Part shown: positions 27,515 to 63,179 of the stretch, piece by piece
How positions within the stretch are numbered: the stretch's first letter is position 1
Layout of the letters: every line of letters begins with the position of its first letter
Source of the DNA: a virus
Strand: one strand, 5' to 3'
IMG/VR virus record: IMGVR_UViG_3300042905_002966
Coordinates: 39,631-103,630 of that record
Length of the DNA: 64,000 bases
Made by a program: the position numbers and the translations under genes
The notes under the pieces: model-generated
Seen by the model: the letters and a program-made list of their open reading frames with translations, nothing else
Databases searched by the model: none
Told to the model about the DNA's origin: nothing

Positions 27515-27930
27515 TTGTGCCTCCTGCATGTCAAAATGATCTTACACTCATTATACTGGAAGTGTTTATTATTTACTTGTAATTTATCTGGTAGATTTTT
27601 TATAATCTCATGAACCGATAAAATACTTTTTCTTTTCCCGCTAAACATTTTTTCATTTAATTCATCCAAATTAATTTCTTCCAAATAAAATCTCTTTGTT
27701 ATTAAACCACAGTCAACTTCTGATATTATTAGTTTAGAATTAAGTCTCAATTTTTCAGTTATTTTATTAAGTAGTTCTTGTTGTTCATTTATAGCAAATG
27801 ATGACAAAAAATCTTCACAAATAATTTCGGTAGCTTCTGATGGTAAAACTGAATCATTTAGCTGTGATAGATTATTAATCCATATATAGTTATCTATACT
27901 TGGCTTATGATTTGATAAAAAAATCTTCAT
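27511..27930 (-). CDS. Truncated methyltransferase-like protein
   Basis: A 139-residue protein. 'ATEIICEDFLSSF', then a helix and 'LRLNSKLIISEVDCGLITKR', look like motif III and the beta-5 region of a class I SAM methyltransferase. The N-terminal Gly-rich SAM loop (GxGxG) is absent and the protein is too short for the full fold. It overlaps its neighbours by 4 nt on each side and has no internal stops, so it is a maintained gene rather than a decayed one. It may be a stand-alone accessory or pseudoenzyme in the glycan island. Confidence 0.5.
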   Translation of the reverse strand: MKIFLSNHKPSIDNYIWINNLSQLNDSVLPSEATEIICEDFLSSFAINEQQELLNKITEKLRLNSKLIISEVDCGLITKRFYLEEINLDELNEKMFSGKRKSILSVHEIIKNLPDKLQVNNKHFQYNECKIILTCRRHK

Positions 27931-28952
27931 ATTTTTCCCTTGTAACGTTCTATAGTTGTATATAGTAGATTGTTCCAGTTATCACAAAACCTGTTTAGGT
28001 TGAACTTTTCTAGTATGGTTTTTCTTGCATTATCTCCGATTTGACGAGCTAAATCATTGTTGTTTAATAACAATTCTAAAAACGATCTAAGTTCTGATGG
28101 ATCATTTGATATTAAGCCATCATACTTGTGTGTAATGATTTCTGGTATCATACAATTAGCAGTTGATACTATGGCACAACCACAAGCCATTGCTTCTAAT
28201 AACACTGTCGGAACTGGCGAATGTATGGATGTATTATAAAAAATCATAGATGAAGAATATATATCTCTTAAGTGTTCTACTGATTCTGCTGGTTGAGAAA
28301 AACCGGCACTTTTACCATATACGCGAACTGGTAATCCGTATGATGTCTCTCTCCATAAATTAAAACCACAGCACCAATCTCTATTGGGCCAATCATTTAC
28401 AACGGATAAACATACGTTATCTCGCTTATCTTTTGTTGGAAACCAAAAATCTGTATCCACACCATGTTCAACTACATTAGAATTAGATTCATTATAGCCC
28501 CATTTCTTTCTGCTGTAATCAGATATAAAAGAATTTGCAAATACTGGTATATTTTGAAATATAGATTTTTGTTGTTCTACATCCATTCTTATATCTGGAA
28601 GAACATGTGTATGTCTTAGGATTGGTATAGCCAACATTGACAATCCAGCATTTTTAGTGTTAGATAATGTGTCGTGAGCATATTGTAATCTATCACAGGA
28701 TGTGTGTGATAAAACTATATCTATGTCTAAATATGGCGGTACTTCATTTATGATGTTGTAATTTTCTGGAATTACTCCATAGTCTTTATCCCAAGATTTG
28801 CCATAATTTAAAGCATAGAAATTATGACCAGTTTTTGATAAATTTTGTTCATATCTTTCATGCGTGGTAAATGTAAGAATATTTAGCTTATCTTCACGCT
28901 GTGGATGTTTTAGTATTGCTTTTATGTTTTTTGGAATTGCACTAGCAATCAT
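27927..28952 (-). CDS. GT4-type glycosyltransferase
   Basis: A 341-residue GT-B enzyme. 'VVEHGVDTDFW' at about 160-170 is the inter-domain element, and 'PTVLLEAMACGCAIVST' (248-264) holds Glu253 in the phosphate and ribose-binding helix typical of GT4. The first half of the E-x7-E motif is less clear, with 'TSIHSPVP' in its place. C-terminal helices 'DLARQIGDNARKTILEKF' also fit the family. It overlaps the next gene by 4 nt. Donor and acceptor unknown. Confidence 0.75.
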   Translation of the reverse strand: MIASAIPKNIKAILKHPQREDKLNILTFTTHERYEQNLSKTGHNFYALNYGKSWDKDYGVIPENYNIINEVPPYLDIDIVLSHTSCDRLQYAHDTLSNTKNAGLSMLAIPILRHTHVLPDIRMDVEQQKSIFQNIPVFANSFISDYSRKKWGYNESNSNVVEHGVDTDFWFPTKDKRDNVCLSVVNDWPNRDWCCGFNLWRETSYGLPVRVYGKSAGFSQPAESVEHLRDIYSSSMIFYNTSIHSPVPTVLLEAMACGCAIVSTANCMIPEIITHKYDGLISNDPSELRSFLELLLNNNDLARQIGDNARKTILEKFNLNRFCDNWNNLLYTTIERYKGKI

Positions 28953-30030
28953 TTAATAAATCCTTTATTGTTGTGCCAACAGACTGATGACTATATAACT
29001 TAGCTTTTTCTATGGCATTATGTGTATCATTTTTTGCTTCTACTGTATTCCATTTCATATAATAGTTTCTCATAGCTATCATTAGAGATCTTATATCTAT
29101 TTCTGACCAATCACTATGCGCATTGTCCAAAAATGGAATTGTATCAACCGCCCCAAAGCATGGTGTAGTTCTTGACATTACTTTTATGCCATAACTAAAA
29201 TCATCCATTCCAGTATTACTAGCATGTATTACTGGTAATCCAAGGGCCATAGCTTCTAAAGCTGGTATACAAAATCCCTCTGCCCTACTTGGCATTACAA
29301 AACAATGGCACTGTTTTATTACAGAAAGATAATCATTTTTATTAAGCTTACCACAAATGATGATTTCTTTTTTATATGAGGTTCTAATTTTAAGCCCTCT
29401 TTTTATTGATTCACTATAATTATTGATATAGTCAATGTTCTGCCTAGATGTTTTAATCATAAGATTGACAGGCTCTGTCATATCAAATTCAGTATGAAAT
29501 GCTTTTATTAAAGCTGATATATTCTTTCTTTCAATAAACTCGCCAATAAATAGAAAATTAAAAGTATTCTCTAATTCTACAATTTTTTTTGTAAATTGTG
29601 CATTTAGATATTGATTTATATCTAAAGAATGTGGAACCACATGAATAGGAACAGTAATACCACTTCTTCTACATGCCGCCTTAGAATATAAACTAGGCAC
29701 CCATATTTCATCTAATAAATTTGCATGATGTTGCCATGCAGTATCTTTAAAATTAGAGCTTTCTACGGCTAAAAATCCTATATTTTTTTTATATGTAGAA
29801 TCATATACATATGAATCTGGTAAAACATGCTGAATACATATATCGCAATTATAACTTGATTTTTTTTCTAGTTCTAAAATCTTCTCTGGTGGATTTCCAT
29901 GTTGCACAGAATACGAGACACATCTTGGCACAACATCAATACCTATTTTGTCCATTGCCAAAATATTGTTAATACAGGCATCAGACCAGCCACTACCATC
30001 TCTATAGTTACCTATATATAAAACTTTCAT
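28942..30030 (-). CDS. GT4-type glycosyltransferase
   Basis: A 362-residue protein. 'GNYRDGSGWSDACINNI' is the N-terminal acceptor-side loop, 'HVVPHSLDINQY' the linker and 'FLFIGEFIERKN' the start of the donor domain. 'PSRAEGFCIPALEAMALGLP' (247-266) contains the complete E-x7-E motif (Glu251, Glu259). A canonical retaining GT4 enzyme is likely. It overlaps the preceding gene by 4 nt and the next by 11 nt, so the three GT4 genes here form a coupled set. Confidence 0.82.
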   Translation of the reverse strand: MKVLYIGNYRDGSGWSDACINNILAMDKIGIDVVPRCVSYSVQHGNPPEKILELEKKSSYNCDICIQHVLPDSYVYDSTYKKNIGFLAVESSNFKDTAWQHHANLLDEIWVPSLYSKAACRRSGITVPIHVVPHSLDINQYLNAQFTKKIVELENTFNFLFIGEFIERKNISALIKAFHTEFDMTEPVNLMIKTSRQNIDYINNYSESIKRGLKIRTSYKKEIIICGKLNKNDYLSVIKQCHCFVMPSRAEGFCIPALEAMALGLPVIHASNTGMDDFSYGIKVMSRTTPCFGAVDTIPFLDNAHSDWSEIDIRSLMIAMRNYYMKWNTVEAKNDTHNAIEKAKLYSHQSVGTTIKDLLNDC

Positions 30031-31664
30031 GATATTTTAAATTTTTCCAATCTGGCCTGTTCCCAATGATTCATTTGTAGTCTAAAATTTGTCATTTCTT
30101 TCATGGCTTCATCTATAGAAAATGGTTTAACAGTACTATATGATTGTATATGCGATTCATTAAAGTAAAAATCATGCTCAAGATTTTCACACCTATATCC
30201 AAAACTACAATCTCTTAATACTCTTCTCCAAAGATATCCGCCAATCCATTCTGGTTTTCCCAATACGTTATTAAAAATGAAATTAACCTTATCTAAAGAT
30301 GTAGTCAACTGTTCTGGAATAGCATGTGCTGGACTAAATAATTTTGATGGTGATTTCCAAGAAAGATGCTCTGGTATAATTTCTGTATTTAATATATAGT
30401 CCATCCACTTATTTGCTGTCTGGTCCCAACTATATGCTTTTCTTGCTTTATTGCATACGCTAGTACCTATATTTTTTAATTCATCTTGAGTTTTTTCTGA
30501 TAGCCTTAATAATATATCAATAAACTCTTGATTGTTTGGAATAGCTCTATTGCAACCGGTTTCGCATTCTTTACTAAACGCAATTGGATTTACACCTATA
30601 CCTCCGATATTATCAATGACAGACTTCATTGCTGAATAATATATAGAAACAACTGGTAAACCACAGTATGCTGCTTCTAATTGCGGCATACCAAAACCCT
30701 CACTATTTGCATATTGTATATATACATCAAATATATTATAGATTTTAGCTAATTCTTTTTCTGTAATGCTATTGCCAATACCAACCAACGCATTAGTAAA
30801 ATTACCACACGACTTACAAAACTGCATAGCATCTTGAAAAAAATCAGTAGTAATTTTACCACATTTTTTACATTTGTATGTAAATAATACCCTGTTAGAT
30901 AAAGAATACGTGTCTAATAATTCTGGTATATTCCATCCGATATCTGGATAATATGTATGGCAATATAAAAATACATCATTTCTATTTGATAGATTTAGAA
31001 ATTCTCTAAATGATTCAAACAAGTCTGGATAAAGTTTTCTTTTTTGATTACGCATGACGGTGCCAAATATCAATGAATCTGGTCTTAAACCGCATTGTGA
31101 TTTATGTTGTGCCTTGTTAGCAACAGGAGTAAAACATTCACTTGCTGCTGGAGATGCAATGTCTAAAAACTTAATATTATCACACTGATTTAATAGTACA
31201 TCTCTACCAAATTCTGAATATGTAAAAACAGCATCTGCTGATTCATATGTATTAATCCATTGATTATTTTGTGGTTCAGCATCAACAGTTGGCATTATTG
31301 CCCACTTGAAAAAATTTCTAAACGGCGATCTTTGCTGAAACTCAATCATCCACCAATCCCTAATATCTAATACAAAATGTGGATTAAAATCTAATAATAC
31401 TTCATTAAAAGAAAAATCCCCAAATTGAGCGCTAGGACTTACTTGATAAGTCTTATATTGTGGATGATTACTTGATGGTTTATTGCCATAAATTTTCCAA
31501 GGAAAATCTTTGACATGTGGGTCATCTGAAGAGGCGTATATAGCTATTTGTGCAACATCTAAAGATGGATTTTGTACTAGTCTTTTTAGGACTTGATTTC
31601 CATATACAGAATATCCAGTGCTATACCACGGAGCTTCTGATAAGAATAAAACTTTCTTTTTCAT
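30027..31664 (-). CDS. GT4-type glycosyltransferase with inserted zinc ribbon
   Basis: A 545-residue protein, longer than a usual GT4 (about 350-400). 'PWYSTGYSVYGNQVLKRLV' opens the acceptor domain, 'SLIFGTVMRNQKRK' starts the donor domain, and 'SEGFGMPQLEAAYCGLPVVS' (321-340) carries the E-x7-E motif. Between them, residues 265-286 insert a zinc ribbon: 'CKKCGK' and 'CKSCGN' separated by 14 residues. The extra C-terminal 150 residues are unassigned. The insertion may bind an acceptor protein or nucleic acid, or simply stabilise the fold. Confidence 0.82.
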   Translation of the reverse strand: MKKKVLFLSEAPWYSTGYSVYGNQVLKRLVQNPSLDVAQIAIYASSDDPHVKDFPWKIYGNKPSSNHPQYKTYQVSPSAQFGDFSFNEVLLDFNPHFVLDIRDWWMIEFQQRSPFRNFFKWAIMPTVDAEPQNNQWINTYESADAVFTYSEFGRDVLLNQCDNIKFLDIASPAASECFTPVANKAQHKSQCGLRPDSLIFGTVMRNQKRKLYPDLFESFREFLNLSNRNDVFLYCHTYYPDIGWNIPELLDTYSLSNRVLFTYKCKKCGKITTDFFQDAMQFCKSCGNFTNALVGIGNSITEKELAKIYNIFDVYIQYANSEGFGMPQLEAAYCGLPVVSIYYSAMKSVIDNIGGIGVNPIAFSKECETGCNRAIPNNQEFIDILLRLSEKTQDELKNIGTSVCNKARKAYSWDQTANKWMDYILNTEIIPEHLSWKSPSKLFSPAHAIPEQLTTSLDKVNFIFNNVLGKPEWIGGYLWRRVLRDCSFGYRCENLEHDFYFNESHIQSYSTVKPFSIDEAMKEMTNFRLQMNHWEQARLEKFKIS

Positions 31665-31665
31665 A

Positions 31666-31962
31666 TCAATTTTGATTTACAAATATTTTAAATGTTGTGA
31701 TTCTAAAAACAGTATTATTATTTTCTTTTCTAGCTACGGCCTCTACTACTATATAGTCATTAGCCATTGATTGAGTGGTAATCGCTATTGCAGCACTATC
31801 CCATGCTTCAAATTCTAATATATCTTTTCTTTTACGCTTGTTTCCATCTTTATCTTTTCTATATTCTTCTATTTCTAGAAGAAATCTAGTGAATTTTGCA
31901 AAATCATTTGTTTGCAATTGTGGCGTATCTACAAACCTACCAAGAAAATGACACTTATTCAT
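31666..31962 (-). CDS. ssb: Single-stranded DNA-binding protein (OB fold)
   Basis: The start at ATG 31962 (98 aa) is chosen over an upstream TTG because the SSB-type opening 'NKCHFLGRFVDTPQLQTN' begins there and GAGGA lies 9 nt upstream. 'FTRFLLEIEEYRK', 'KRKDILEFEAWDSAAIAI', 'DYIVVEAVAR' and 'VFRITTFKIF' give the five-strand order of an SSB OB fold. It lacks the long acidic tail of bacterial SSBs. It directly follows the C-terminal polymerase gene in the replisome operon, which supports a replication role. Confidence 0.78.
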   Translation of the reverse strand: MNKCHFLGRFVDTPQLQTNDFAKFTRFLLEIEEYRKDKDGNKRKRKDILEFEAWDSAAIAITTQSMANDYIVVEAVARKENNNTVFRITTFKIFVNQN

Positions 31963-31976
31963 ATGATCTATAATCC

Positions 31977-33524
31977 TCAAACTTGTGTAACTTTATTTAC
32001 AATTAATGATGTGTTTTCCTTTTTAGAGATTTCTCCATTAATATATACTGTATTGCCTTCTGTCAATAAATCTTTATATTCTGAATAAGTCTCTGGAAAA
32101 ATGGTAATAGAGTCTAGCATTCCACTACTGTCTTCAGCACACAAAAAAGCCATTATCTGACCGGGATTTTTACCCTTTTTTGTTTTGTATTGACGAACAG
32201 AGTTAATACTCACTACTATATTTGCCTTACCTGTTATCAAGCCATTGGATATATCTTTGCACATATTAGCAGCAAGAAATTGGTCAGAAGCATCTGTCTT
32301 ATTGCATGTTAAAGAACATCCAAAATATTTCGATTCTTCTTCGGCTATAGTTACGATTGAATCTTCCAAGTTGTACATTGGATTTTTCAGTGAATTACTA
32401 ATATCTAATACGATTTGCTGTCTACTTTGTACTATTTTTAGTGTTGATAATAAGTCTATTATACAGTCATGTAGTGATTTTTTACCAGCATAATTATTAG
32501 CTATATGATCTTGCTCTCTATTAGAAAGTAATTTCCAACTATCATATTCATATAACATCTTTTTTCTATGTTCTAGATTATATTTACCATTAAATGCTCC
32601 AGCAGATATTAAAGCTATAACGGATCTCTTATTAAGGTTGTATCTATGAATAATATTTATCAAACAATCTAGCCATGTATATCTAGTTATATCATGATTA
32701 TATTTGATTTCTTGGATTTTTTTGCACTCTGCTTCTCCAACATTTTTAATATGATTTAAGCCAAAAAATATCTTACCATTCTTGATTGTGAAATCTGTAT
32801 ATAGATTATCTAGCCTTGGTGGATATACATCTATATCGTTTGATTTTGCATCAGTGATTAATTCCTTTATTTCTTTTTGTGAGTCTGGCTTTCTATGTGC
32901 ATGATTTAGGTAAGTTTTATAGAAGCTTAGTGGTTTCCATTTTTTACAATACGCACTCCAATACGCATTGATAGCATAGGAGACTGCATGTGATTTATTA
33001 AATGCATATCTATTAGATTTTTCTATCCAAGAGAAAATTTCTTCTGCTGACTCTTTCGTGACTATATTTAGTTTTTCTGATCCTTGAATAAATTGTTCTT
33101 TGACTTCATTCATGAGTGCTGCATTTTTCTTGCCAATCGCTTTACGCAGTGAATCCGCTTCTTTTAGTGAAAATCCTGCTAGTTTTTGTGCAATCATCAT
33201 GGATTGTTCTTGATATACCAATACACCATATGTCTCACTTAAAATTGACTCCAATGAGTCATGAGGATATGTTACTGGGTCTTTGGCATGTTTTCTATCA
33301 ATATAATGTTGCGTCATAGATTTGCCATCTACATACGCCTTTAGACATCCCGGTCTAATTAAACTAATCAAAGCTGCAAGTTCTGATAGGTTTCTAGGTT
33401 TTAGCTGTTTAGCCCAATGTCGTCCAAGATTAGATTCTAATTGAAAAACTCCTTTGGTTTTTCCAGTACAAATCAAATCCCAAACCTCGTCGTCATCAAA
33501 ATCATTTATGTTAAATGTTTTCAT
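31977..33524 (-). CDS. dnaE: DNA polymerase III alpha, C-terminal half (fingers to OB fold)
   Basis: A 515-residue protein collinear with the second half of DnaE. It begins 'MKTFNINDFDDDEVWDL', then 'GKTKGVFQLES', which in intact DnaE follows the palm by a few residues. 'GVLVYQEQSMMIAQKLAGFS' and 'SLRKAIGKK' belong to the fingers and nucleotide-binding region. 'YAFNKSHAVSYAINAYWSAY' is the classic motif before the tandem helix-hairpin-helix. 'FFGLNHIKNVGE' marks the HhH, and an OB domain closes it ('GQIMAFLCAEDSSGMLD'). A tau-binding tail is missing. It must pair with the half at 34433-36028 to make an enzyme. No intein sequence is seen at its N terminus. Confidence 0.87.
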   Translation of the reverse strand: MKTFNINDFDDDEVWDLICTGKTKGVFQLESNLGRHWAKQLKPRNLSELAALISLIRPGCLKAYVDGKSMTQHYIDRKHAKDPVTYPHDSLESILSETYGVLVYQEQSMMIAQKLAGFSLKEADSLRKAIGKKNAALMNEVKEQFIQGSEKLNIVTKESAEEIFSWIEKSNRYAFNKSHAVSYAINAYWSAYCKKWKPLSFYKTYLNHAHRKPDSQKEIKELITDAKSNDIDVYPPRLDNLYTDFTIKNGKIFFGLNHIKNVGEAECKKIQEIKYNHDITRYTWLDCLINIIHRYNLNKRSVIALISAGAFNGKYNLEHRKKMLYEYDSWKLLSNREQDHIANNYAGKKSLHDCIIDLLSTLKIVQSRQQIVLDISNSLKNPMYNLEDSIVTIAEEESKYFGCSLTCNKTDASDQFLAANMCKDISNGLITGKANIVVSINSVRQYKTKKGKNPGQIMAFLCAEDSSGMLDSITIFPETYSEYKDLLTEGNTVYINGEISKKENTSLIVNKVTQV

Positions 33525-33533
33525 GTTAATTGT

Positions 33534-34223
33534 CTATTGTATATAGAGTTCGCTATTTGCAAAGGCTTTTTCAAACTTGATTTTCTTTAATAGATTACGC
33601 TGTAGCTTTAGAAATTTTATCAGTATATTTGCTGTATCTTTAACGTCTTGTAAGGCGTCATGTGAATTTTCTGAAGATATTCCGAAATAATCTCTTAAAT
33701 AATCCATGTTATAACCTTTTACATCGTGATTATTTTCAAACCAGCAATATATATGATTCATTAGATCTATCTTGAATATTGGATTAAAGATCTTTTGCTC
33801 ATTTTTGATTTTATCAAATGGTCCATATTGTTTACATAAGCGATCTACGATAACCATATCATATCCAATGATATTATAGCCAACAGCTACTGGTGCGGTA
33901 TATGATGTTTTCTTAAAATTGTATTGATTACAGAATTCTGCAAATTTTTTCCATACAACTTTTGGTAGCGGTGCTTTGGCTAAAGTGTCTCTATTTTTTC
34001 TGGTAATCTCTAATGCCTTATCCTCAAGCGGTCCTACTCCAGCTTTAATAGCTTCTTCATCGTCAATTATTGGTCTAATTTCACTATTAAAGACTCCATT
34101 TGGTTGTAGTTCCAACTTCTTCGCATGTATGGCTACTGCGGCTATCTGTGTGGGTTGACATGTATTTGGATCAGCGCCACCAGTTTCAAAGTCGAACACA
34201 ATATAATCTCTATGATTTGCCAT
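33534..34223 (-). CDS. DEDDh 3'-5' exonuclease (DnaQ-like)
   Basis: A 229-residue protein. All four acidic motif residues are present: 'YIVFDFETGG' (Asp11, Glu13), 'GYNIIGYDMVIVDRL' (Asp122) and 'SHDALQDVKDTANI' (His188, Asp193), which is the DEDDh arrangement of DnaQ epsilon and RNase T. It lies exactly between the two polymerase halves, 9 nt before the C-terminal half, so a proofreading exonuclease for this polymerase is the simplest reading. Confidence 0.85.
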   Translation of the reverse strand: MANHRDYIVFDFETGGADPNTCQPTQIAAVAIHAKKLELQPNGVFNSEIRPIIDDEEAIKAGVGPLEDKALEITRKNRDTLAKAPLPKVVWKKFAEFCNQYNFKKTSYTAPVAVGYNIIGYDMVIVDRLCKQYGPFDKIKNEQKIFNPIFKIDLMNHIYCWFENNHDVKGYNMDYLRDYFGISSENSHDALQDVKDTANILIKFLKLQRNLLKKIKFEKAFANSELYIQ

Positions 34224-34446
34224 TCAGTTTTCCTCTGGTTAATGCAAAAAATTTATCTACAGCTTCATCAATATTATGATACATATTATAACAATGATGC
34301 TTATCTGACCAAACTTGGTACTTTGCTGCTCTGGATATCAATTTGTTCTTGAGATGATTTTCTATGTTACATATAGACACACCACCACAATCTACAGCGC
34401 ATCCAGCAAAAACAACAGCTTTAATATCTTGCTTAGTTATTGTCAT
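34210..34446 (-). CDS. Small unknown protein between the polymerase halves
   Basis: The start is placed at ATG 34446 (78 aa), with GGAG 6 nt upstream; the longer frame extends into the polymerase gene. The sequence has 'VVFAGCAVDCGGVSICNIE' followed by a basic helical region with 'SDKHHCYNMYHN'. Four Cys and several His could bind metal. It overlaps the exonuclease by 14 nt and the N-terminal polymerase half by 14 nt, so it is probably made stoichiometrically with them. It could be a bridging or assembly factor; that is speculation. Confidence 0.5.
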   Translation of the reverse strand: MTITKQDIKAVVFAGCAVDCGGVSICNIENHLKNKLISRAAKYQVWSDKHHCYNMYHNIDEAVDKFFALTRGKLNGKS

Positions 34447-36028
34447 TTTCGTCTCCAATAATCTCCATGATCTTACTTAATAAATCAATTCCAAGAATAT
34501 CGAACTTGATATGTCCTTGGCTTTCTAAATCGTTCATTTCAAATGCGGCTATCATTTGATCGTTTTTGTCTTTAACCATTGGACATATATCTAGAAGTTT
34601 TTGTTGAGAGATTAATACTCCAGCCGCATGTTTGCCTTGCGACTTATTAGTACCCTCAATGTCGATTGCCTGTTTAAATATATCTGCTAGCGGTCCTTCT
34701 AATGTGCCATTTTCGTTTTTATAGCACCAATTCTTTAATGATTCAGCGTCATTATCTAATGCCCAATTAATGATAGATTTTTCACCCATTAATTCTAGCT
34801 GATCAGAGATTTCTGCCTCGTTTGGTATTCTTTTAGTTATCTCATTCATTTCAGCAAATGACACGGCATCATTAATCCTTAAAACCTCTTTTAATGCTGC
34901 TCTACCTTGTAGTCTACCGAATGTAATCATTTGAGATACATTTTCATGTCCATATTTTGTTTTGATATAGTCAATAATGTTATCTCTATATTCAGCTGGT
35001 ACATCGACATCAATATCTGGTAACGAGATGTGGTCTTTAGTGTTTCTACCTTCGTTGTAGAATCTTTCAAAAAGTAGACCATGTTGGATTGGGTCCACAT
35101 CTGTAATTCCTACTAGAAACGATACCAGACACCCTGCGGCTGAACCTCTACCGGGACCAGCTAACCATCCTCTACGCTTGACTTCATTGACTATATCTTG
35201 CACAATTAGAAAATATCCGGCGAGATTTGCATTTAGTATTACATCCAGTTCATGTTTTATTCTATTAGTATATTCCGTCTTTTTATCTTCATTCAATATT
35301 TTACCAGTTTTGATTAATCTATCCATCCACCCAATTCTACATAACTGCCTCAAATAATCATTTTCATTAATATCATTTGGGCATTGAAATTTTGGTAGTC
35401 GTGGTTTTTCTGTTATATCATATGACTCGCATAATATGTTTAACTTATCAGAAATTGATTGATAAATAGTATCACTTGGCGGAATAGTTAAGTAGAAATC
35501 ATTTCTAGTAAAAAATTCCATATGCTCAAATTCTTCATTGTTTCTGATCTTTTTCTTTATATTTGGCAATGTTGTTTTCTGATCCGCACATAACAAAATA
35601 CGATGACACTCTACGTCCTTTTGATCTACATAGTAGATAGCATATTGCTTTATATTACATTGAATAAAATTGTCTAGAAAAATTTTTTCTATATTTAGAT
35701 CGTTAGACATACATAATATATTGTTGGTTTTAGCAATATCCTCTAGCATGATATGATCAATATCTGAAACTATTCTCATTAGTTCAAACCATCCAGATTT
35801 ATTTTTTGCAATCAATATAAATTCGCCAAAATCACATCCTATAATTGGTTTAATGTTGTTTTTTTTACAGGCTTGATGAAACTCTATTGCTCCAGATATG
35901 GTTTTTTTATCTGCTATAACACAGCCATCATATCCATACTCATTACATCTCTTTGCTAAGTCGTCACATTGTGATAAGCCATTTAGTAAACTAAAATGTG
36001 TTTTACAATTTAATGCAATATTAGACAT
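34433..36028 (-). CDS. dnaE: DNA polymerase III alpha, N-terminal half (PHP and palm)
   Basis: A 531-residue protein. The PHP domain starts 'ALNCKTHFSLLNG' and contains 'NNIKPIIGCDFGEF'; the first metal His of the usual 'HvHS.yS' motif is Lys here, so PHP activity is doubtful. The palm has 'GPGRGSAAGCLVSFLVGITD' and the catalytic 'PDIDVD' (337-342, Asp340 and Asp342). 'QGKHAAGVLIS' follows. The third catalytic Asp is in 'HIKFDILGID' (Asp510). The chain stops 21 residues later, just where intact DnaE passes to the fingers. All three catalytic acids are in this half and the fingers are in the gene at 31977-33524. Confidence 0.88.
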   Translation of the reverse strand: MSNIALNCKTHFSLLNGLSQCDDLAKRCNEYGYDGCVIADKKTISGAIEFHQACKKNNIKPIIGCDFGEFILIAKNKSGWFELMRIVSDIDHIMLEDIAKTNNILCMSNDLNIEKIFLDNFIQCNIKQYAIYYVDQKDVECHRILLCADQKTTLPNIKKKIRNNEEFEHMEFFTRNDFYLTIPPSDTIYQSISDKLNILCESYDITEKPRLPKFQCPNDINENDYLRQLCRIGWMDRLIKTGKILNEDKKTEYTNRIKHELDVILNANLAGYFLIVQDIVNEVKRRGWLAGPGRGSAAGCLVSFLVGITDVDPIQHGLLFERFYNEGRNTKDHISLPDIDVDVPAEYRDNIIDYIKTKYGHENVSQMITFGRLQGRAALKEVLRINDAVSFAEMNEITKRIPNEAEISDQLELMGEKSIINWALDNDAESLKNWCYKNENGTLEGPLADIFKQAIDIEGTNKSQGKHAAGVLISQQKLLDICPMVKDKNDQMIAAFEMNDLESQGHIKFDILGIDLLSKIMEIIGDENDNN

Positions 36029-55399: not shown

Positions 55400-56329
55400 T
55401 TAAAATACCTCATCAAGAGTCCAATCTATATTTCTTGCTGGAAAGCCATCAACATCACTAAACACCCATGATCCACTAGAGCCTAACATATCACGGGCTA
55501 CAGATTCTCTAATCCAAAAACTTCCATCTGGTTGATCGTGTCGTTTTGGGCCATTATTCCAAACTCCCCAACTATTTTGAACCAAGAAAAGAGTTTCATT
55601 ATATATTTCATGGGTATCATCTGCGGCTATCCAAGCCATAGCGTGCGCCCAAGATCCAGATGGGGCGGCTATACCATACTTATCTCTACGAGAACTGAAT
55701 CCAAACATTGAACATACGCTTATGCCATATCCATTTGCCAGAGCGTCTCTGGCCTCTTCTACGGTTGTTATTAAACTGGCTGTTCTTACTGGCCTCTTTT
55801 GTGCTTCTTCTATAAGCGTCTTAGGTGGCCCGCTTCGTCCCCAAGACGATGCAAGTTTACCTTGATATGATGTTAAATCAATATTGTCATATTTTTGTCT
55901 AATTAATACACCACCAGTTTGTTTGACAAATCTTGCCGCACCAGAACATGTCATGCCTTCACCACCGTGTCCGCGTGAACCATATATGCCTTCTGTAGCA
56001 CCGCGAGCAACAAACTCTTCATTTTCTCCATTGATAATTTCACAGCTTCTAGTGATATCTATTGCATTACGAGTAGAGTGTGAGACACAATCACCAACTA
56101 CTTGTCTTTCTGAAGGACCAAAATTAGGATCGAATTTTAATAGATTTTTAAATGGAAGAGATAATTTTCCTTTTCCTGTTCCATATAATTTATATGCAGC
56201 AGCACCGAATAATGGATGTCTTAATTCACCCAATAATTTATCAGTATCTTCTGGATCACAAATGCTACCGACGAATCCATCCTTGTACGTCTTTAGAATT
56301 TTTGATGGAGTACTAAAGTCGAGTTGCAT
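55400..56329 (-). CDS. Papain-like (C1-type) cysteine peptidase
   Basis: A 309-residue protein with the papain triad in order: 'RQVVGDCVSHSTRNAI' (Cys81, with Gln76 as possible oxyanion residue), 'SGSWAHAMAWIAAD' (His229) and 'LFLVQNSWGVW' (Asn252). No signal peptide or propeptide-like inhibitor is visible. In phages such enzymes act as virion maturation proteases, as tail-borne peptidases, or occasionally as lysins. Followed within 2 nt by an exported protein and then by holin-like genes, a lysis-linked role is possible. Catalytic assignment is firm, substrate unknown. Confidence 0.8.
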   Translation of the reverse strand: MQLDFSTPSKILKTYKDGFVGSICDPEDTDKLLGELRHPLFGAAAYKLYGTGKGKLSLPFKNLLKFDPNFGPSERQVVGDCVSHSTRNAIDITRSCEIINGENEEFVARGATEGIYGSRGHGGEGMTCSGAARFVKQTGGVLIRQKYDNIDLTSYQGKLASSWGRSGPPKTLIEEAQKRPVRTASLITTVEEARDALANGYGISVCSMFGFSSRRDKYGIAAPSGSWAHAMAWIAADDTHEIYNETLFLVQNSWGVWNNGPKRHDQPDGSFWIRESVARDMLGSSGSWVFSDVDGFPARNIDWTLDEVF

Positions 56330-57386
56330 TTAATATTCCTTTAGCTGAGTTTTGCCATGAAAATTTTTCTGCTGTCTGAATACCATCTACATTAATATTT
56401 AGTTCACCGTTCTGTTTTTTCTTATGCACCAGCCTCATATGACTTATAGTTTCTTCTTTTTGATTATCAGACAACTCAGCCCAAAAACCACATTTACCAT
56501 CAAAAAATACTCCATCAAACGCTGTCTCTAGATTATCGACATCTATAAGCATGGCATTTTGATTATTGCAAAACTCTGTATGTGCAGAATAGTTGGTAGT
56601 AATTACATGTTTTCCGCATGACATCATTTCAAGTAACTCTAAATTCCACCCTTCAGCCCTAGATGGAAATATTCCACAATCTGAGAGCCTCATAATATTA
56701 TACACATCTTTTTGGGTTTGCTGTCTAGGTATTATCCTTATTTTTTCACCCAGCTGTGAGTTTTTATATAGGCTTTTCCATTCATTATTTTGTTCGCCTA
56801 TAAAAGGATTATCGCATAACATCCATAGTTCTACATCGTCATGATAGGTAAATGCCCTATTAAAACACTCAACAATAATATCGTGACCTTTTCTAATTTC
56901 CCATTTTCCACAATTGAGAAAGACTGTAGTTGACCTTTTATTTGGCAGTGTACATGGCCTAAATACAGTAGCATCTACACCAAGCGGAATTACATGAATG
57001 TCTGATTGATCAAATTTATTCACATTATTCATTACGACTTCTTTTGCCCAGTTAGAACATACCATAATTTTATCACAATGAGATAAACTGACTATTTCAT
57101 GAGAATTAAATTTGGTTAATTCAAATATTGGAAAACCAAAATATGTACCATTACCAACTTTGGTCTGTAAATCATGTTGATGCCATAATTTTATACACGG
57201 TCTATGTTTATCAAAATAAAGTTGATTATTAATACTTATAGATATAATATGGGTATCATCCATATTTTCTGGTCTTGAAATTGGATATAATGCAATTGTA
57301 TTATCTATTTGATATAATTCTTTCAGTAGATTATATCCAGCTATACCATAGCCGAGATTATTAATTGGAGCTATAAAATTTATCAT
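56313..57386 (-). CDS. GT4-type glycosyltransferase
   Basis: A 357-residue GT-B enzyme. 'INNLGYGIAGYNLLKEL' opens the acceptor domain, 'IHVIPLGVDATVFRP' is the hinge, and 'LNCGKWEIRKGHDIIVECFN' starts the donor domain. 'PSRAEGWNLELLEMMSCGKH' (241-260) contains E-x7-E (Glu245, Glu253). All key elements are intact, so it is probably active. It overlaps the nucleotidyltransferase gene upstream by 26 nt, suggesting that the pair supplies and uses the same sugar. Confidence 0.82.
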   Translation of the reverse strand: MINFIAPINNLGYGIAGYNLLKELYQIDNTIALYPISRPENMDDTHIISISINNQLYFDKHRPCIKLWHQHDLQTKVGNGTYFGFPIFELTKFNSHEIVSLSHCDKIMVCSNWAKEVVMNNVNKFDQSDIHVIPLGVDATVFRPCTLPNKRSTTVFLNCGKWEIRKGHDIIVECFNRAFTYHDDVELWMLCDNPFIGEQNNEWKSLYKNSQLGEKIRIIPRQQTQKDVYNIMRLSDCGIFPSRAEGWNLELLEMMSCGKHVITTNYSAHTEFCNNQNAMLIDVDNLETAFDGVFFDGKCGFWAELSDNQKEETISHMRLVHKKKQNGELNINVDGIQTAEKFSWQNSAKGILNATRL

Positions 57387-61575: not shown

Positions 61576-61911
61576 TTATTTCATTAATTTTTTTAGTCTG
61601 TTCTGATAAGAATTGTCGTATCCAGTTATTCTTGCTACTTCTAAAGAATCATCATTTAGAATGATAGTAGTTGGCACAACTCTAATTTTAAAATGTTTTT
61701 TTAGATCTGGTGATTCATCTATATCGATAATCACAATATTGTATATGTCATGTAGATCTGTATTATCATCTAGAAATTTTTTTAAATTAACACAGGAAGG
61801 ACACCATTTGGCACTAAAAATATATAAATCATCCGCAATACAATATTTTGATGTCAAGCCAGCAAATACTAATATACAAAGAAAAGTATTTAAGAATCTA
61901 ACAAGTGTCAT
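61576..61911 (-). CDS. Exported thioredoxin-like protein
   Basis: A 111-residue protein. An N-terminal signal peptide ('VRFLNTFLCILVFAGLTSKY') is followed by a single thioredoxin fold: 'IFSAKWCPSCVNLKKFL' has the C-x-x-C redox site (CPSC), 'IVIIDIDESPDLKKHF' a middle strand, and 'RVVPTTIIL' the cis-Pro loop. It probably acts on disulfides outside the cytoplasm. It overlaps the DUF1501 gene by 4 nt, so the two exported proteins are co-translated. Confidence 0.82.
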   Translation of the reverse strand: MTLVRFLNTFLCILVFAGLTSKYCIADDLYIFSAKWCPSCVNLKKFLDDNTDLHDIYNIVIIDIDESPDLKKHFKIRVVPTTIILNDDSLEVARITGYDNSYQNRLKKLMK

Positions 61912-63179
61912 ACAATTATTTCTAATATTGGTTTTCCGCCATCTACTATTTTTACAGGTCTATTGCCGGGAGCCATAATATGTTTTTCTGGATTAATACC
62001 AAGTAGTGTATATATAGTCGAGGCCCAATCTTCTACTGACACAGGATTATCTAGTGGATCAGTGGCCGTATCATTGCTAGATCCATATACTATTCCAGAT
62101 TTTATACCGCCACCAGCCATTATTCCACTATATAGCTTGGGCCAATGATCTCTTCCGGCAGTTGGATTTATTTTTGGTGTTCTTCCAAACTCTGTTCCAA
62201 CTACTACCAATGTAGATTCTAATAATCCTCTTGATTCTAAATCAAGTATTAAACTTGAAAATGCTTTATCAAAAGGTGGTAATTGAGTTTGCATATTAGT
62301 AGCAATATTATCATGATGATCCCATCCACCATATGTCATTGTTATAAATCTTACTCCAGCTTCTACTAGCCTTCTTGATAATAACATCCTCATGCCAGCA
62401 GAATTCTTGCCATATGTTTCTTTTGTTTCATCTTTTTCTAATGATAAATCAAATGCCTCTATAGCCGCATTAGAATCCATTAGCTCAAAAGCATTTTCAT
62501 AAAATGAATTCATGGCAACTAAAGCATCAGATTTTTGTGTTGCATCAAAATTTTTATTGACGACCTCCAACATTTTTTTTCTTTTATCAAATCTTTGTAT
62601 CGATATTCCTTCTGGCAATCTTAGATCTCTTACTTTAAAATTGGGATCTTCTGGATTTCCACCAAGACTAAAAGAAGAATATGAATGACTTAAATAACCG
62701 GCACCAGCGAATTCATTAGGTACATTTGGTACTGTAATATAGGGTGGTAGATTGTTTTTTCCACCTAATTCATGACCCACTATAGAACCAATACTGGGGT
62801 ATTGTATTGCTGGCGATGGTCGCCATCCGGTAAACATATTGTGTGTTCCACGTTCATGTGCTGCCTCATTATGGTTCATAGATCGTATTACTGTTATCTT
62901 ATCTGCAATCTTGGCAGTATCTTTCAATAATTCGCTAAATTTAATTCCAGTAATTGAAGTATCTATTGATGATAGTGGCCCCCTGTATTCTGCTGGGGCA
63001 AATGGTTTAGGATCAAATGTTTCTTGGGTAGAAAATCCACCGGGTAAATATATGTAAATTACAGATTTTGCTTTTGCTTCTGTAGCAATGTTATCATCTG
63101 CAATTAACATTGAATAATTAGTATTATTAATACCAATACAACTCAATGCGCCAAGCTGTAATATATTTCTTCTATTCAT
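61908..63179 (-). CDS. DUF1501 family protein with Tat-type leader
   Basis: A 423-residue, apparently complete protein. The N terminus 'MNRRNILQLGALSCIG' is a short twin-arginine signal. The body has 'GGFSTQETFDPKP', 'SMNHNEAAHERGTHNMFTGW', 'TMTYGGWDHHDN', 'VVGTEFGRTP' and 'GRDHWPKLYSGIMAGGGIK', then 'SVEDWASTIYTLLGI'. These metal-binding His/Asp motifs define DUF1501, an alkaline-phosphatase/sulfatase-superfamily relative very abundant in Planctomycetes and rarely reported in phages. Its biochemical activity is not established. It may modify or remove phosphate or sulfate groups in the envelope. Host acquisition is inferred. Confidence 0.88.
   Translation of the reverse strand: MNRRNILQLGALSCIGINNTNYSMLIADDNIATEAKAKSVIYIYLPGGFSTQETFDPKPFAPAEYRGPLSSIDTSITGIKFSELLKDTAKIADKITVIRSMNHNEAAHERGTHNMFTGWRPSPAIQYPSIGSIVGHELGGKNNLPPYITVPNVPNEFAGAGYLSHSYSSFSLGGNPEDPNFKVRDLRLPEGISIQRFDKRKKMLEVVNKNFDATQKSDALVAMNSFYENAFELMDSNAAIEAFDLSLEKDETKETYGKNSAGMRMLLSRRLVEAGVRFITMTYGGWDHHDNIATNMQTQLPPFDKAFSSLILDLESRGLLESTLVVVGTEFGRTPKINPTAGRDHWPKLYSGIMAGGGIKSGIVYGSSNDTATDPLDNPVSVEDWASTIYTLLGINPEKHIMAPGNRPVKIVDGGKPILEIIV

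Follow-up and report, generated by a model that had tools for sequence, protein, structure and literature searches.

How can a replicative DNA polymerase be built when the gene for its alpha subunit is divided in two and other genes lie in the gap? Bacterial-type replicative polymerases are usually regarded as single polypeptides, in which palm and fingers belong to one machine. In the window analyzed here (64 kb, the final part of a 103,630-base virus record, i.e., of a phage contig of about 103 kb), the DNA polymerase III alpha subunit (DnaE) is encoded by an N gene and a C gene, which are transcribed from the minus strand in the order N, 78-aa ORF, exonuclease gene, C, and SSB-like gene (Table 1). 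On re-check, coordinates and reading frames of both polymerase genes held as an earlier note on this DNA had assigned them. Its description of short overlaps throughout applies to the junctions N/78-aa ORF and 78-aa ORF/exonuclease (14 nt each), but not to the exonuclease and C genes, which are separated by a 9-nt gap.

Table 1. Features of the split polymerase locus (positions within the window).
Feature	Coordinates	Strand	Size, evidence or prediction
N half of DnaE: PHP-like domain, palm, thumb	34433..36028	(-)	531 aa; PF07733, PF02811; PDB alignment
78-aa ORF, function unknown	34210..34446	(-)	predicted H-E-E-H-E-E-H fold
DEDDh 3'-5' exonuclease, probable proofreader	33534..34223	(-)	229 aa; RNase_T, phrog_192
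C half of DnaE: fingers, helix-hairpin-helix, OB fold	31977..33524	(-)	515 aa; PF17657, PDB alignment
SSB-like gene	31666..31980	(-)	PF00436 E 4.4e-05, under curated cut-off; synteny

Pfam searches identified the palm (PF07733, E 1.3e-72) and PHP (PF02811) domains in the N half, and the fingers (PF17657, E 8.3e-48), HHH_6, and a weak OB-fold match in the C half. Together, the two products thus present the features of a C-family DnaE, namely the palm with its three catalytic Asp residues (D338, D340, and D510 in the window), thumb, fingers, HhH, and OB fold; what is not fulfilled is the single polypeptide. Bacterial alpha has, in addition, a C-terminal region that is missing from the C half of the window. 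Replication genes in the neighborhood encode a DnaB-like helicase, primase, RecA, PhoH, dUTPase, class II ribonucleotide reductase, and dNMP kinase, and the SSB-like gene follows C by synteny in most relatives. The earlier note had named a second intact dnaE as a finding that would refute its reading. Profile searches of the record yielded one PF07733 palm match, one fingers match, and one RNase_T match, and neither PolA, PolB, nor a second DnaE was found, with the reservation that records may be incomplete. Likewise, each of 26 related records (26–177 kb) contains one palm-domain gene, the two palm matches of the L446 record belonging to a single intein-carrying ORF.

The exact position of the break was derived from alignments to solved DnaEs, in which residue 519 of the N half corresponds to E. 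coli 564 and Taq 627 and residue 9 of the C half to E. coli 591 and Taq 650. Since the N half stops at E. coli residue 564 and the C half resumes at 591, only the variable palm–fingers linker is cut, and thus no domain is interrupted. The N half ends 21 residues past D510, which is indeed the third catalytic Asp, and the alignment to E. coli and Taq DnaE supports the further claim of the earlier note that nothing essential is lost, the linker being nearly complete. Among the relatives described below, N does not extend beyond the conserved IDLLSKIMEI helix by more than a few residues (about 25 at the most), and C begins with a short head ahead of a conserved VWDLIC or TW.LF stretch, whereby the distance from the Asp to FQLES is 37–56 residues in split forms compared to 48–61 in the intact ones measured. 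When modeled alone with AlphaFold2, the C half gave a confident fold (pLDDT 89.5, pTM 0.79), for which Foldseek returned a match to 7pu7 (E 1.2e-22); against Mycobacterium tuberculosis DnaE1 the model matched across 528 alignment columns.

In near-identical contigs from other samples (95–100% protein identity) the layout is the same. Searches of viral contigs and one genome search, after removal of copies sharing the same N end, led to a set of 183 distinct loci, all from metagenomic data and comprising those most similar to each query. Every one of them is split into two genes at the same palm–fingers linker, none is fused, and the exonuclease gene lies in the gap in 183/183. They form branch A (88 loci, including the window), in which the 78-aa ORF is present throughout, and branch B (95 loci). 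Between the window and L241, a member of B, the identity amounts to 51% for N, 57% for the exonuclease, and 44% for C. With a more distant query, 62 DnaEs that are intact across the border were obtained, together with 17 more split loci, some of which are near copies of each other, and one truncated locus. The same split, for which the earlier note had proposed to search other phages, is thus present in 200 related loci, and it is real and much wider than first noted, extending over a large group of uncultured phages.

Within the deeper split loci the content of the gap varies. In branch D the halves are separated by the exonuclease gene and by a small ORF similar to the 78-aa ORF, and in branch E by a different small ORF and a divergent exonuclease. 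In the single locus of branch F, the exonuclease gene stands behind N and is followed by about 4.4 kb of other genes before C. In the two loci of branch G, a dUTPase, a 158–159-aa ORF, a zinc ribbon, and a thymidine kinase are located between the halves; no exonuclease was found there, nor an RNase_T gene in a 177-kb record of this branch. The split locus L475 groups with A. When C halves were placed in a tree, the split forms sampled fell into one clade (100/100) against 26 intact DnaEs, with G branching off first and D grouping with B (97/93), although roots and long branches of the tree are uncertain and only two G loci were available. As a separate observation, L448 carries an 849-aa protein with RCC1 repeats (L448:2700-5249) between N and the exonuclease.

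The 78-aa ORF (82 aa if started at TTG 34458) has no family match in Pfam or phrog. Its model (AlphaFold2, pLDDT 81.5) gave no PDB match in fold searches and only weak matches, the best with E 0.024, to phage proteins that are unnamed or uncharacterized. Apart from the similar ORF in D, it is limited to branch A. It had been described as Cys/His-rich, but these residues are mostly not conserved, and a zinc protein was rejected because C26 is the only invariant one among them. A universal linker was likewise rejected, and a necessary part of the enzyme is not supported, since the ORF is absent from all 95 loci of branch B.

The exonuclease carries the DEDDh motifs (D-x-E, D, and H-x4-D), whose five residues are unchanged in 183/183 loci, and it matches RNase_T (E 2.4e-11) and phrog_192, annotated as “DNA polymerase exonuclease subunit” (E 1.1e-24). 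The metal ligands of the PHP domain comprise HxH, TDHG, a Glu, a later His, a Cys or His, and a final D.H. In the window this DnaE feature is lost, as the earlier note had inferred from a Lys in place of the first metal His; it is both HxH ligands, however, and not one, that are replaced (N7, K9). E. coli DnaE likewise has a degenerate PHP metal site. In the members read, the ligands are in place in G, E, and D, with His for Cys in D and E, whereas A and B have lost them and have a shortened domain. G thus has an intact PHP site with no exonuclease found, D and E have both, and A and B have a dead PHP site, so that PHP loss occurs only together with the exonuclease. This gradient along the tree supports the proposal that proofreading moved to the exonuclease, proofreading itself being inferred. 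On sequence grounds it suggests that the split came first, that the exonuclease followed later, and that PHP proofreading was lost thereafter; if D is rightly placed, its grouping with B would mean that the PHP site was lost twice.

It might also be that the exonuclease is a recombination or processing nuclease that stands in the operon by chance. The closest solved relatives, E. coli exonuclease I and the PolC exonuclease, are only weak matches (E about 8e-4), the gene lies kilobases away from C in branch F and is missing in branch G, and D and E retain the PHP site as well, so that the exonuclease need not be the sole proofreader there. We consider this alternative unlikely, yet it has to be kept in mind; the linkage to the polymerase in 183/183 loci, the strongest constraint among the genes of the locus, the restriction of PHP loss to loci with the exonuclease, and the match to a family of polymerase exonuclease subunits all speak against it. 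There are three bacterial parallels in which a DEDD exonuclease has taken over from PHP proofreading (PMC5636811), and there, too, the presence of such an exonuclease goes along with loss of the metal site in the PHP domain. The phage case differs in that the exonuclease gene is located inside the split alpha gene and that intermediates with both systems exist. At least three old bacterial cases of this replacement are known (PMC5636811), and the phages would provide surviving intermediates of it and, if the interpretation is true, a further evolutionary route.

A different possibility is that protein splicing, RNA splicing, or frameshifting rejoins the halves to one normal polypeptide. Such elements do visit polymerase genes, as is evident from the C genes of some relatives, in which the same reading detected inteins and which thus served as a positive control. 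Cis inteins are inserted at IRPG/C in L011 (5291), L013, L098 (6336), and L379 (7141), and split inteins at FNK/C in L013:10437-13873, L077:4091, and L084:10432, whereby L013 has a free-standing 298-aa nuclease-like ORF between the intein halves. Inteins thus do occur in these phages, though none at the N/C break. No intein blocks were found at the N end or the C start in any locus, in line with the absence of intein motifs at either junction that had been noticed before, and no Rfam intron match was obtained at the break. Moreover, the gap is almost wholly coding and filled by conserved genes with 9-nt or negative spacing, and in branch G it is occupied by other genes. Rejoining is thus very improbable, and in the absence of a splicing element at the break the two halves most likely come together as separate proteins.

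Independently of this, the cis inteins of L098 and L379 apparently contain an HNH nuclease, and in-frame LAGLIDADG inteins were seen in a PD-(D/E)XK nuclease gene (L013:4661-6631) and in a branch-G N gene (L446:643-3894). Two further phage DnaEs (L462:2903-7482 and L419:3710-7485) are broken before the PDID motif and have intein-like ends, with a separate 311-aa ORF between the parts in L462.

Could the split gene be decaying or unused, with the host polymerase copying the phage? No sliding clamp gene was detected in the record, which makes it probable that some host replication parts are borrowed. An unused gene is nevertheless hardly conceivable, given median dN/dS values of 0.038 for N and 0.038 for C (exonuclease 0.024, 78-aa ORF 0.051 in branch A), a catalytic Asp triad that is unchanged in 183/183 loci, and conservation over deep divergence; by this sequence measure, both halves, the exonuclease, and the 78-aa ORF are under purifying selection. 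A sequencing or assembly artefact, which the metagenomic source might suggest, can practically be ruled out since contigs from many samples show the same break, at 183 distinct loci and a further 17 deeper ones.

The reading that accounts best for these data is that of the earlier note, i.e., assembly in trans at the palm–fingers border without a split intein, although assembly is inferred and activity has not been demonstrated. Very likely, the Pol III alpha consists of two independently translated subunits, with the exonuclease as a separate proofreader; assembly, activity, and proofreading remain inferences. The N and C halves would be translated separately and associate non-covalently via the palm–fingers interface to one polymerase, and the 3'-5' proofreading would fall to the DEDDh exonuclease, the metal site of the PHP domain being destroyed. 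In historical terms, a single split event may have come first, with the exonuclease entering the gap later and the PHP ligands being lost thereafter in A and B. With less assurance, though on balance probably, this is an obligately multi-subunit C-family polymerase of a deep phage lineage, which was split once at a hinge, whose proofreading was later taken over by the exonuclease, and in which intermediates of PHP replacement survive. What counts against a two-subunit enzyme is that processivity is unexplained, since the C half has no C-terminal alpha region and no clamp gene was found.

Enzymes from genes in pieces are known from T4-like phages, including Aeh1 NrdA, gp43A/43B (PolB) of phages 25 and 44RR, and T4 topoisomerase; activity is retained by the divided Aeh1 NrdA and by the gp43 of phage 25, whose two parts co-purify (PMC2988022). 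The phage DnaE meets the definition of such a gene in that its parts are separately translated without splicing and nothing essential is lost, and in both systems some members have homing endonuclease genes at or near the break. It differs in being a C-family polymerase that is broken at the palm–fingers linker, with a conserved exonuclease in the gap, and in that the break is old and common to a deep lineage. Endonuclease VII-type ORFs are located at the exonuclease–C junction in members of branches A and B, although not in the window, and other gaps contain ORFs of the HNH and MUG113/T5orf172 types. At 85–86% identity, the endonuclease VII-type copy of L241 (B) resembles those of L030 and L091 (A) much more closely than the adjacent polymerase genes of the two branches resemble each other, which points to a recent arrival at this junction. 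By analogy with Aeh1 NrdA, an endonuclease may have broken the ancestral gene, although none was seen at the break in the two loci of branch G.

Other split polymerases are less similar. In the OM43 phages MEP401/402, a small ORF of unknown function separates the two ORFs that encode PolA, for which the authors suggested an intron and left the mechanism open (PMC10580990); this replicative polymerase belongs to the A family and has no exonuclease gene in its gap. PolB of Methanothermobacter thermautotrophicus, also replicative-type, consists of two polypeptides (PMC7776575) but is an archaeal B-family enzyme.

Cyanobacterial DnaE is encoded by a split-intein gene, and Dassa reportedly described in 2009 a “fractured gene” layout of split-intein halves with a free-standing ORF between them (work cited in PMC6892783). 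In these genes the coding region is likewise divided in two with genes between, whereas no intein halves flank the N/C break of the phage DnaE; such a layout is present at FNK/C in relatives.

Three cultured phages were rejected as precedents. The DnaE of Bacillus phage Jayan is encoded by two ORFs, but here the break falls on the active-site motif PDID; Rfam gave no intron match there, and the relative 268TH004 has an intact DnaE. In Pseudomonas phage PA5 the two ORFs overlap and the relative LBL3 has one gene, so that a frameshift is likely. Bacteroides phage DAC16 has a related exonuclease, but terminase and ligase genes adjoin it and not DnaE. No close relative exists among cultured phages, the best N and C matches being about 31% identical, although not all of the ~1,300 cultured DnaE matches were inspected for splits. 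In the open literature searched, the coverage of which is incomplete, no split phage DnaE of this kind is reported. The split marks a large uncultured phage lineage and, as a long-conserved natural hinge split, gives biochemistry and the design of split-polymerase tools a DnaE that already comes in two pieces.

As to the host, the only clue came from MAG bins in the genome search (SAR202, Flavobacteriales), which we do not trust. Close to the contig end, window positions 61908-63179 encode a DUF1501 protein (E 1.8e-109), an unusual phage gene that may be a clue to the host or else a sign that the contig end is chimeric. Furthermore, glycosyltransferase-like genes lie beside the replication genes (window 27927-31664 and 56313-57386). 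A 545-aa glycosyltransferase-like gene behind the SSB-like gene has look-alikes at the corresponding position of branches D, E, and G, which suggests one phage lineage.
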